Below, one piece after another: positions 45,301 to 47,097 of a stretch of DNA of 64,000 nt. Positions within the stretch are counted from its first letter, which is position 1, and each line of letters opens with the position of its first letter. The stretch is from Pseudopedobacter saltans DSM 12145 (GTDB lineage Bacteria; Bacteroidota; Bacteroidia; Sphingobacteriales; Sphingobacteriaceae). The translations under genes were made by a program, and so were the position numbers. Location of the stretch: assembly GCF_000190735.1 (NCBI RefSeq), contig NC_015177.1, positions 3,224,001 to 3,288,000 of the forward strand, given 5' to 3'. The notes under the pieces were generated by a model. It saw nothing but the letters and a program-made list of their open reading frames with translations. It was not told where the DNA came from and did not search any database.

Positions 45301-45353
45301 CATAAACGAAAAAAGGTTAACCCGTTAAAGTTAACCTTTTTTGCGGTCTGGAC
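45301..45353. repeat. Direct repeat, copy 1 (terminator plus tRNA-Asp 3' end)
   Basis: These 53 bases match 45694-45746 at all but one position (45323 c versus 45716 t). The unit contains the hairpin terminator and the last bases of a tRNA-Asp gene (ggtctggac). Copy 1 directly abuts the stop of the dehydrogenase gene. Confidence 0.92.
45309..45342. terminator. Bidirectional terminator, copy 1
   Basis: Arms aaaaaaggttaac and gttaacctttttt pair perfectly over 13 bases with an 8-base loop. It ends the forward dehydrogenase transcript, and was once presumably the terminator of a reverse tRNA gene. Confidence 0.85.
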
Positions 45354-45436
45354 AGCTTGTCCGGTCTTTGACAGGAGAACTCGAACCCGTCTCGCTCGAA
45401 GCGAGATGACAGGCTTGTATTCTAACCTTCTGAATT
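45344..45436 (-). pseudogene. Decayed tRNA-Asp copy
   Basis: Read on the reverse strand this stretch keeps tRNA-Asp pieces in order: the D-arm/anticodon part (match to ggttagaatacannnctgtc), the T-loop (gggttcgagtt) and the 3' acceptor end (gtccagaccg). The 5' acceptor and D-stem are lost, and about 20 extra bases with a ctcgctcgaagcgag hairpin interrupt it. It cannot fold as a functional tRNA. Its left part overlaps the stop codon of the GIY-YIG pseudogene. Confidence 0.75.
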
Positions 45437-45696
45437 AATTTTAATAAGATTGGACGCTTGGAGACAGAGCCATTCTATATATTTTCTATTATATCTTTTC
45501 AATTGCTTTTCTCTAATCAATGCAGATCTTTTCGTCTCACATGCCTCCAGGTAAATAAGCCGCCATGGTATTTTGGATTTCGTATAACGACTTTTACCTT
45601 GGTTATGCTCTTCTACACGACGAATATAATCACTGGTAAAGCCTTTAATAACGTTCCGTCTTTCTCACTCTTAATGATATAAACATAATGCTCCAT
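45422..45696 (-). pseudogene. Frameshifted GIY-YIG nuclease gene
   Basis: On the reverse strand the ATG at 45696 begins MEHYVYIIKSEKDGT, the start of the small GIY-YIG nuclease family (UPF0213-like, about 90 residues). The frame is then lost: near 45650 one base is missing in the stretch that should encode the conserved (F/Y)YKGFT. The next frame continues with KGFTSDYIRRVEEHNQGKS, RYTKSKIPWRLIYLEAC and ALIREKQLKRYNRKYIEWL to TAG at 45422-45424. The length, 275 bases, is one short of a whole number of codons. The gene is flanked by tRNA-Asp copies. Confidence 0.85.
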
Positions 45697-45746
45697 AAAC
45701 GAAAAAAGGTTAACCTGTTAAAGTTAACCTTTTTTGCGGTCTGGAC
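45694..45746. repeat. Direct repeat, copy 2 (terminator plus tRNA-Asp 3' end)
   Basis: Second copy of the 53-base unit at 45301-45353, here attached to the intact tRNA-Asp. Its first three bases are the complement of the GIY-YIG start codon, so the nuclease gene fits exactly between the two copies. Confidence 0.92.
45702..45735. terminator. Terminator of tRNA-Asp, copy 2
   Basis: Same 13-base stem (aaaaaaggttaac/gttaacctttttt) with an 8-base loop, one base downstream of the tRNA 3' end on the reverse strand. Confidence 0.85.
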
Positions 45747-45810
45747 GGGACTCGAACCCGCGACCCCATGCGTGACAGGCATGTATTCTAACCAGCTGAA
45801 CTACCAGACC
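45737..45810 (-). tRNA. tRNA-Asp (GTC anticodon)
   Basis: A complete 74-base cloverleaf on the reverse strand: acceptor GGTCTGG pairing with CCAGACC, D-arm with AGTTCAGCTGGTTAGA, anticodon loop CTGTCAC, T-arm GCGGGTTCGAGTCCCGT and discriminator G. CCA is not encoded. It is the only functional tRNA in the window. Confidence 0.97.
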
Positions 45811-45828
45811 AATATTTTTAAGCTTCAA

Positions 45829-45895
45829 GGTTGACATTCGAACCCGAGACCCTCCCGACACGTCGGGATAGTCTAACCAGCTGAACTACCAACCC
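45829..45895 (-). pseudogene. Second decayed tRNA-like copy upstream of tRNA-Asp
   Basis: On the reverse strand it starts like tRNA-Asp (GGTTGGTAGTTCAGCTGGTTAGA). Its two ends still pair as a seven-base acceptor stem with two G-T pairs, but the anticodon arm is replaced by a palindromic CCCGACGTGTCGGGA and the 3' side of the T-stem is missing after TTCGAAT. It is 18 bases upstream of the intact tRNA. Confidence 0.7.
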
Positions 45896-45960: not shown

Positions 45961-47037
45961 TTACAAAACTGAAGCGCCTTCCTTCAACTTCTCAGCATTC
46001 TCTGCAAATTGCAGTGCATCCAGAATTTCCTGTATCTCTCCGTTCATAACCGCAGGAAGATTATATAAAGTCAAACCTATACGATGTTCGGTAACCCTTC
46101 CTTGCGGATAGTTGTAAGTACGTATTTTGGCAGACCTGTCTCCGGTCGAAACCATGGTTTTACGTTTACTCGCAATTTCTTCATTGTATTTTGCCAATTC
46201 ACGCTCATAGAGTTTGCTACGTAACATTTCCATAGCCCGCTCTCTGTTCCCCAACTGTGAACGTTCTACCTGACAAACTACTACTATTCCAGTTGGTTTA
46301 TGTGTTAGCTGAACTTTGGTTTCCACTTTATTTACGTTCTGTCCACCCGCACCTCCAGATCTTGAAGTTTGCATTTCTATATCTGCAGGGTTAATTTCCA
46401 CGTCCACTTCCTCTGCTTCAGGCAAAACAGCAACAGATGCTGCAGAAGTATGTACACGGCCCTGAGTCTCTGTATCCGGAACACGTTGTACGCGGTGTAC
46501 TCCAGACTCATATTTTAAAGTTCCGTAAACATCTTCTCCGCTTACCTTAAAAACAACCTCTTTGTAACCTCCGTTAGTTCCATCTGTAACTTCAAGAACT
46601 TCTGTCCGCCAACCTTTTCCTTCACAATAGCGAGTGTACATTCTATACAGGTCTCCAGCGAAAATAGCGGCTTCATCACCTCCCGTACCACCTCTGATCT
46701 CCACGATAGCATCTTTCTCATCTCCCGGATCTTTTGGTACCAGCATTAATCTGATTTTGGCTTCCATTTCTTCCTTTTCAGGAATCAAAACATCTAACTC
46801 TTCTTTTGCCATTTCCCGCAACTCCTGATCTTTCTCGTTGGCTAAAATATCTTTATTGGTCGCTATATTGCTAACTACATTTTTATATTTATAGTATTCA
46901 TCTACTATCAGACCAAGATCCTTGTATTCCTTATTCAGCTGCGCAAAACGCTTCATGTCCTGCGTTGCCTCCGGATTCGACAATTCTCTTTCTACATCAT
47001 CGCGACGCAGCTTTATTGCTTCTAATTTATCTAACAT
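45961..47037 (-). CDS. prfA: Peptide chain release factor 1
   Basis: A 358-residue class I release factor that frees finished proteins at UAA and UAG codons. The stop-recognition tripeptide PDT (PxT type) is in [14 protein letters not shown], and the peptidyl-tRNA-hydrolysing GGQ is in [16 protein letters not shown]. The acidic EMQTSRS lead-in is typical. The frame extends to 47064, but the ATG at 47037 starts the canonical [11 protein letters not shown]. It is the last gene of the reverse group lpxH-like, unknown, prfA. Confidence 0.97.
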
Positions 47038-47097
47038 GATATGAAATCTATATCTGAAAACCAAGTCTTAAAATCCCTCATAACAGAGTAAATCAGA

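Follow-up and report, generated by a model that had tools for sequence, protein, structure and literature searches.

tRNA genes are favoured landing sites of mobile DNA, which usually enters them via integrases. Among the systems known to us, SegB of the T-even phages is by analogy the closest to the locus described here, and its best precedent. T4 segB sits between tRNA genes, as tabulated in PMC2988022. According to the account of phage T6 in PMC13096335, SegB is essential for the tandem amplification of a segment that contains tRNA-Tyr and segB, a process that needs phage recombination genes and shows microhomology between the 5′ end of the tRNA and the 3′ end of segB; the survey of phages and archaeal viruses given there reports no favoured isotype. 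The Bacteroidota units that we describe are similar in that a free-standing GIY-YIG gene lies beside tRNA genes, and the junction between tRNA 5′ end and nuclease 3′ end is of the same kind. They are set apart by that description of SegB, which is phage-borne and favours no isotype, whereas the Bacteroidota units are chromosomal and partly structured by isotype. They also differ from SegB in their short, nearly domain-only ORF and their palindrome-bearing tRNA-like sequence. In the open-licence literature available to us, no report of tRNA-linked GIY-YIG genes on bacterial chromosomes was found.

The GIY-YIG superfamily is described as nicking or cleaving DNA with a domain that holds a catalytic arginine and glutamate (PMC2988022; the residues in part from general knowledge). 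Five proteins, four tRNA-linked and one from the sister clade described below, all match PF01541 at 46-72 bits (cut-off 22.6), and Y5, Y16, G18, R26, H30 and E62 are invariant across 16 aligned rows. The intact proteins thus belong to the superfamily; the window copy is frameshifted. Within the domain stretches of the five proteins we found only GIY-YIG and an overlapping T5orf172 match (20.3 bits against a cut-off of 20 in one protein, below it in another), and no separate DNA-binding module. The closest solved structures by sequence are 1zg2 (E=2.9e-14), 1ywl (9.4e-14) and SLX1 (4.4e-7). The UPF0213 proteins (BH0048, EF2693) are thus the nearest by sequence among solved structures and are likewise short; nothing on a tRNA linkage of UPF0213 was found in the literature searched. 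SLX1 has further domains and a partner protein, unlike the tRNA-linked ORFs. Endonucleases of the I-TevI type and of group I introns share the GIY-YIG domain, and an NCBIfam intron model is the best match in 4 of the 5 proteins, but scores no higher than 23.6 bits (cut-off 56.05); the ORFs have a median of 83 aa. With this model far under its cut-off and the tRNA uninterrupted, a group I intron was rejected. The REP/RAYT (TnpA-REP) systems offer another likeness, a small enzyme gene amid short palindromic repeats that also occur solo. As far as the sources describe it, RAYT is a tyrosine (HUH) enzyme, whereas the enzyme associated with the repeats here is a GIY-YIG protein and not an HUH/Y1 transposase, and the Bacteroidota repeats are tRNA-derived.

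The window is a stretch of 64,000 nucleotides of the Pseudopedobacter saltans DSM 12145 chromosome. The sequence-only reading had proposed a small GIY-YIG pseudogene bracketed by direct repeats, between duplicated tRNA-Asp ends and with a decayed tRNA alongside. This arrangement was confirmed, the gene lying between an intact tRNA-Asp and a decayed copy of it (Table 1). The repeat is real, with two 53-nt copies that are 98% identical, and the start codon does lie at its edge: CAT at 45694-45696 is the minus-strand ATG and the end of the tRNA-proximal copy. The gene reads MEHYVYIIKSEKDGT, then shifts frame and continues with GFTSDYIRRVEEHNQGK... up to the TAG at 45422-45424; because of this early frameshift the label of pseudogene is correct. 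Its Pfam match spans profile positions 18-74. On the minus strand, tRNA-Asp is followed by the terminator, the ATG, the frameshift, the rest of the domain, the TAG within the decayed tRNA-Asp-like sequence and a second terminator; the distal repeat copy that carries this second terminator abuts the stop codon of a convergent neighbour gene. The 53-nt repeat is the outer part of a larger duplication that runs from about tRNA position 8 to the 3′ end and includes the terminator. ARAGORN and Rfam both find a single intact tRNA-Asp at the locus, and neither recognises the second tRNA-Asp-like sequence upstream of it, which has TCCCGACGTGTCGGGA where the anticodon arm would be. Local alignment of the upstream with the downstream sequence scores 62.5, against at most 12.0 in 10 shuffles. 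Between the window repeats no ORF longer than 74 aa is found on either strand; no integrase is thus seen within the element, and an island of the integrase type was rejected. An identical second tRNA-Asp of the same genome (G000:C1:3943139-3943213) is free of a GIY-YIG gene; its upstream flank and terminator are similar to those in the window.

Table 1 Features of the tRNA-Asp locus in the window.
Feature	Position	Strand	Evidence
Distal repeat copy: tRNA 3′ end and terminator	45301-45353	-	Repeat search
Decayed tRNA-Asp-like sequence, matching the tRNA from about position 8, carries palindromes	45343-45440	-	
Palindrome TCTCGCTTCGAGCGAGA within the decayed tRNA-Asp-like sequence	45390-45406	-	
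GIY-YIG nuclease ORF, ~90 codons, frameshift near start (pseudogene)	45422-45696	-	PF01541 E=1.8e-8
Proximal repeat copy: tRNA-Asp 3′ end and hairpin terminator, terminating on the GIY-YIG ATG	45694-45746	-	Repeat search
Intact tRNA-Asp(gtc), host gene and presumed target	45736-45810 (Rfam 45737-45810)	-	ARAGORN; Rfam RF00005, 67 bits
Second tRNA-Asp-like sequence, upstream of intact tRNA-Asp, palindrome in place of anticodon arm, no GIY-YIG gene	45830-45894	-	
Palindrome TCCCGACACGTCGGGA in the upstream tRNA-Asp-like sequence	45853-45868	.	1 match in window, 0.02 expected
prfA, adjoins tRNA-Asp	45961-47064	-	NCBIfam equivalog

Two explanations had been offered for this locus, a tRNA-targeted insertion by a small element and a duplication followed by decay. 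The comparison of orthologous sites and the search for related genes both favour the element. Among 18 genomes of the genus, 16 have a match to tRNA-Asp, which lies beside prfA in all 16; the GIY-YIG gene occupies this site only in the window genome and is absent from the other 15. Fourteen of these 15 sites consist of the tRNA and its terminator with no tRNA-like sequence in the 450 bp read, and the remaining one (G012) holds two solo tRNA-Asp-like hairpin repeats. For tRNA-Met, found in 16 of the 18 genomes and with common flanks in 15, the GIY-YIG gene is present in 3 of 16 and absent from 13. Filled and empty alleles of one orthologous site thus coexist (Asp 1/16, Met 3/16), where an empty Asp site means GIY-YIG absence together with a reading of 450 bp and an empty Met site means GIY-YIG absence, so that old decayed tRNA-like sequences may be present. 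The alignment score of the tRNA 3′ end is a poor detector of decayed copies: for Asp it is 11 at the filled site, 6-10 at the 14 sites without a tRNA-like sequence and 16 in G012, and for Met the three filled sites score 10 to 27 and the other 13 score 6-9. The step between filled and unfilled sites may be a loss as well as a gain, since recombination across the direct repeats could also excise the gene exactly. Terminators vary among genomes, and by eye both repeat copies bear the terminator of their own genome (window Asp, G009 Met), which indicates local duplication or homogenisation. A dispersed, damaged tRNA-Asp copy (L217, G013:C36) carries the downstream flank and terminator of its parent.

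The related genes adjoin tRNA genes between repeats across the Bacteroidota. The window genome has 10 PF01541 matches, 9 of them above the cut-off. Five of the matches, all short, adjoin tRNA genes: a tandem pair at tRNA-Val and single copies at Arg(cct), Ser(gct)/Pro and Asp. From the 18 genomes of the genus and 71 of the order (a single GTDB family, nine genera) we collected 197 distinct GIY-YIG loci, and 83 of them have a tRNA or tRNA-like sequence within 450 bp. On a protein tree of 194 rows, tRNA linkage is found in 79/81 rows on one side and 2/113 on the other, a deep split that is weakly supported (64); the forks are built on about 71 columns. The sister side serves as an internal control, with the same fold, similar size and the same genomes. 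On this tree the window protein pairs with another Asp-linked one (support 94, long branches).

A profile built from 16 tRNA-linked domains (E<=1e-12), with linkage itself no part of the search, matched 121 of 198 Bacteroidota genomes and 72 of 104 genera. In 70 loci taken from this search, 76/100 GIY-YIG matches have an ARAGORN tRNA no more than 450 bp away, in each case on the same strand (a few counted twice in overlapping loci); of the 24 without a recognised tRNA, several are inner members of arrays. The adjoining tRNAs cover 14 amino acids (Val, Asp, Asn, Met, Ala, Arg, Ser, Pro, Lys, Gln, Gly, Cys, Leu and Thr). As loci were drawn from the best matches, these frequencies describe strong family members. 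We also selected by protein alone, taking the best 80 of at least 362 relatives by alignment to the Val type, of which 3 repeat loci of other sets. All 80 have a tRNA or tRNA-like sequence within 500 bp: 55 an intact tRNA-Val, 12 a Val-like sequence only (67 Val in all), and 13 another isotype (Met, Arg(tct), Asn, Lys, Ile, Phe or Glu-like). Every one of the 93 ARAGORN calls is on the strand of the GIY-YIG gene. Record titles name Pedobacter, Mucilaginibacter, Sphingobacterium, Flavobacterium, Polaribacter, Echinicola, Fluviicola and Bacteroidales as hosts. The contrast of the two tree sides together with this selection makes coincidence untenable, and it was ruled out. An intact tRNA, a GIY-YIG ORF and a tRNA-like copy, all sharing a strand, make up a recurrent Bacteroidota unit that is frequently repeated in tandem. 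Four Val-type units (L321, L353, L369 and L371) come from metagenome bins named Actinomyces, Kuenenia, Bifidobacterium and Limnohabitans; these reflect either binning errors or spread outside the Bacteroidota, and are taken for binning errors. Of 50,697 phage records the Val-type query matched 2, and of 72,556 plasmid records 5, with identity below 60% throughout; a further search gave 2 viral contigs at 33-39%. With no close match there, carriage by phage or plasmid was rejected.

The tRNA-linked ORFs are mostly domain (129 copies; median 83 aa, quartiles 81-88, maximum 148). Their genes stand alone beside a tRNA gene, as those of free-standing homing endonucleases do in intergenic regions beside their targets, the tRNA being the presumed target here. 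An intact tRNA precedes the ATG by less than 130 nt in 113 loci, and in 95 of these a matching copy of the tRNA 3′ end follows downstream; at other loci (many Ser, some Arg, Ala and Pro) the intact tRNA is the downstream copy. Sixty-five of the 95 have no further GIY-YIG gene behind that copy; here the end of the repeat falls within 15 nt of the ATG in 19 loci, coincides with the tRNA 3′ end in 16 others, overshoots the ATG by more than 15 nt in 12 and takes an intermediate position in the remainder. The start-codon junction of the window is therefore real and not the rule. The stop codon falls inside the downstream tRNA or tRNA-like sequence in 79 of 133 cases, before it in 52 and after it in 2, with peaks at tRNA position 8 (12 loci) and position 21 (8 loci). 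Some Val loci (including rows of L016, L227, L262 and L281) were labelled Lys by the tRNA library, which affects these stop positions and the stem, TCC-palindrome, flank-sharing and 157-row tree counts given below. We counted 53 tandem runs, 50 of them of the tRNA type, although some are one array in overlapping loci; they reach 7 copies, with units mostly of 320-400 bp. At L039 (G001:C1:2471000-2478500), seven tandem 358-bp units of GIY-YIG gene and Val-like sequence have identical GIY-YIG scores, with an eighth ~1.3 kb away, in what looks like a very recent amplification.

A palindrome recurs in the tRNA-like copies. A perfect stem of at least 7 bp is present in 82 of 134 of them, 28 of 124 intact tRNAs and 23 of 402 shuffles, with a contribution from terminators at the edges. 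A TCC-led palindrome of at least 6 bp lies within 170 bp downstream of 138 of 238 tRNA-linked GIY-YIG genes, against none in shuffled sequence and 9 of 122 in the sister clade; the other 100 of the 238 regions are without it. The form TCCCGA..TCGGGA occurs in 96 of 238 tRNA-linked regions and 1 of 122 sister-clade regions. Most non-Met units use it, whereas Met-linked units, 17 of 20 of which have a palindrome, carry TCCGCC..GGCGGA in 13 of these. Arg units are mostly without the TCC form, and some have CCTGCC..GGCAGG. Because the palindrome stands in for the anticodon stem, ARAGORN assigns the anticodon TTA, which would decode the stop codon UAA, to two Val-like copies at L002 (1025-1102 and 1400-1477) that it still calls tRNAs. 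Within the window genome the TCCCGA palindrome has 40 sites, against 1 for the reversed pattern, in mixed contexts that include REP-like repeats. Four pairs of these sites in G000:C1 lie 1639 bp apart (270416/272055, 926355/927994, 2651680/2653319 and 2981668/2983307), the flanks being identical in the two pairs that were read; they are probably four copies of one insertion sequence.

We think it rather probable that the locus is a decayed member of a family of chromosomal, free-standing, homing-type nuclease elements that target tRNA genes. The unit anatomy, the isotype association, the arrays, the filled and unfilled sites, the selection on the protein and the recurrent palindrome are observed by comparison and fit this reading. 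Cleavage, movement, repair route, expression and the role of the palindrome would follow a scheme like this. The mobile part would be a minimal GIY-YIG ORF with a tRNA-like remnant fused to its 3′ end. The nuclease would nick or cut the tRNA gene of its isotype, and recombinational repair would place the ORF between a regenerated intact tRNA and another copy of the tRNA 3′ end that includes a terminator; the host would thereby retain a working tRNA. Recombination between the repeats could then yield tandem arrays or delete the unit. As the ORF is on the strand of the tRNA, read-through expression from the tRNA promoter is possible. The palindrome in the tRNA-like sequence would probably be the recognition or protection site of the element itself. 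The window copy is dead, and its likely function is read from its relatives.

Several features count against this reading. The ORF median is 83 aa, while the characterised homing enzymes of the SegB kind have DNA-binding modules. The intact tRNA beside the gene should stay cleavable, which the model must explain. The scattered isotypes and inherited flanks described below also weigh against it, as do the junctions within 15 nt of the ATG in only 19 of 65 loci and the 100 regions without the TCC palindrome. The palindrome-bearing tRNA-like sequence is an obvious candidate for aiming so small an enzyme. It is conceivable, though we think it quite unlikely, that a domain-only nuclease owes its specificity for tRNA genes to this hairpin-bearing sequence in its own tail, acting as a DNA hairpin end or as a guide transcript. 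The former would be a GIY-YIG counterpart of REP/RAYT, and the latter has an anatomical analogy in nucleases whose guide RNA overlaps the 3′ end of their gene.

The strongest rival explanation, which we nevertheless hold to be unlikely, is a REP-like system in which a tRNA-born extragenic palindrome is mobilised by the GIY-YIG protein as RAYT serves REPs, with specificity coming from the repeat and not from homing. The sister-clade genes speak for it, as 65 of 112 are flanked by direct repeats above the 99% level of mismatched pairs and 47 are below, and so do the solo tRNA-Asp-like sequences without a GIY-YIG gene in G012 and in the window, and the TCCCGA palindromes inside REP-like repeats elsewhere in the window genome. 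However, the solo tRNA-like sequences adjoin their parent tRNA, and the dispersed L217 copy by eye shows no inserted palindrome and retains its parental downstream flank. There are few extra tRNA-Asp copies in the 18 genomes, where solo repeats were sought for Asp and Met, and the genes within REP arrays and those at tRNAs fall on opposite sides of the tree. A REP system would scatter its palindromic repeat in many copies; here the tRNA-like sequences were seen near parent tRNAs, and TCCCGA occurs at the 40 sites in mixed contexts. At the sister-clade loci read, including L001 and L003, the repeats are REP-like, which suggests an association of GIY-YIG genes and REPs in the Bacteroidota.

Alternatively, the protein might attack the tRNA of its isotype as RNA, with the transcript of the adjacent tRNA-like sequence as a neutralising decoy, a type III-like toxin and antidote arrangement that we find improbable. 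It would explain the isotype association, and some tRNA-like sequences do keep a cloverleaf: ARAGORN calls Val-like copies with an altered anticodon arm, and one folds with z -2.42. The fold test has little power, since the intact tRNA-Asp itself reaches only -0.99; the upstream tRNA-like sequence of the window (shifted stretch 45819-45892) gives -1.39. Against such an arrangement, known GIY-YIG enzymes, to our knowledge, act on DNA, in agreement with the description of the superfamily cited above. At stem pairs 4 and 5, 203 of 216 cells are Watson-Crick and 5 are G-T, which fits a DNA palindrome better than an RNA, although hairpins in the 108 of 248 regions that passed the filter were chosen partly for pairing, which biases the count upward. 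Solo tRNA-like sequences and broken GIY-YIG copies also exist.

The distribution over isotypes and hosts bears on a further alternative, that tRNA and GIY-YIG gene form a unit inherited vertically, often lost, and retained because it serves the host, for example in tRNA gene dosage or repair. The protein phylogeny follows tRNA isotype better than host family, with several isotypes scattered. A tree of 157 tRNA-linked rows has 48 isotype changes against 119.3 when shuffled, a contrast inflated by near-copies. On a stricter tree that keeps a single row for each combination of genus and isotype (75 rows, excluding singleton isotypes and rows that contain stops, and with mislabelled loci that have an intact tRNA-Val relabelled), there are 34 isotype changes against 57.3 when shuffled and a possible minimum of 14 (0/200 shuffles as low), and 42 host-family changes against 47.5 (1/200 as low). 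Met (7 rows; support 100/99), Leu(taa) (3), Arg(cct) (3), Gly(tcc) (2) and Arg(tcg) (2) each form a single clade. Val needs 4 changes in 10 rows, Ser(gga) 3 in 6 and Asn 6 in 9; Asp and Ser(tga) barely cluster (each 6 in 7), and Ala (7 in 7), Ser(gct) (5 in 5), Arg(acg), Leu(gag) and Pro(cgg) do not cluster at all. The scattered isotypes, Asn among them, point to loose specificity or switching; the nuclease lineages appear to have retained their isotype for long in some cases and to have switched it in others.

Same-isotype pairs have a flanking gene in common in 86 of 117 cases within a genus, 98 of 198 within a family and 20 of 317 across families, the last to be compared with 33 of 6066 for different-isotype pairs across families. 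Inherited position therefore accounts for part of the pattern within a family and for little across families. The sharing among close relatives agrees with vertical descent, as does selection: dN/dS has a median of 0.11 in 39 tRNA-linked pairs, where the Ser(gct) group gives the highest value of 0.70, and a median of 0.09 in 29 sister-clade pairs, the pairs of both sets being non-independent, which suggests purifying selection at the protein level on the tRNA-linked genes. A passenger kept by the host is nonetheless very improbable in our judgement, as 297 of 317 cross-family same-isotype pairs are without a common flanking gene in the short flanks compared, occupancy within the genus is patchy (1 to 7 of 18 genomes per isotype), and pseudogenes, arrays and isotype switches occur. 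A simple duplication of the tRNA and its decay, with an unrelated gene trapped in the middle, would account for the window locus alone, but as a general explanation it is refuted by the 79/81 versus 2/113 and the 80/80, and we allow it practically no chance.

A protein of ~83 residues thus appears to be specialised on tRNA genes phylum-wide, in separate lineages for several isotypes, with the intact tRNA left in place. These units form a large family of small, selfish-looking elements in the Bacteroidota, often with one type of enzyme per kind of tRNA. If the proposed reading is true, it would explain many of the small GIY-YIG genes and pseudo-tRNAs in Bacteroidota genomes and would provide a chromosomal counterpart of the tRNA amplification driven by SegB. 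It would also offer a simple system for asking how so small a nuclease chooses its target, and the recurrent palindrome makes the question of recognition directly testable.
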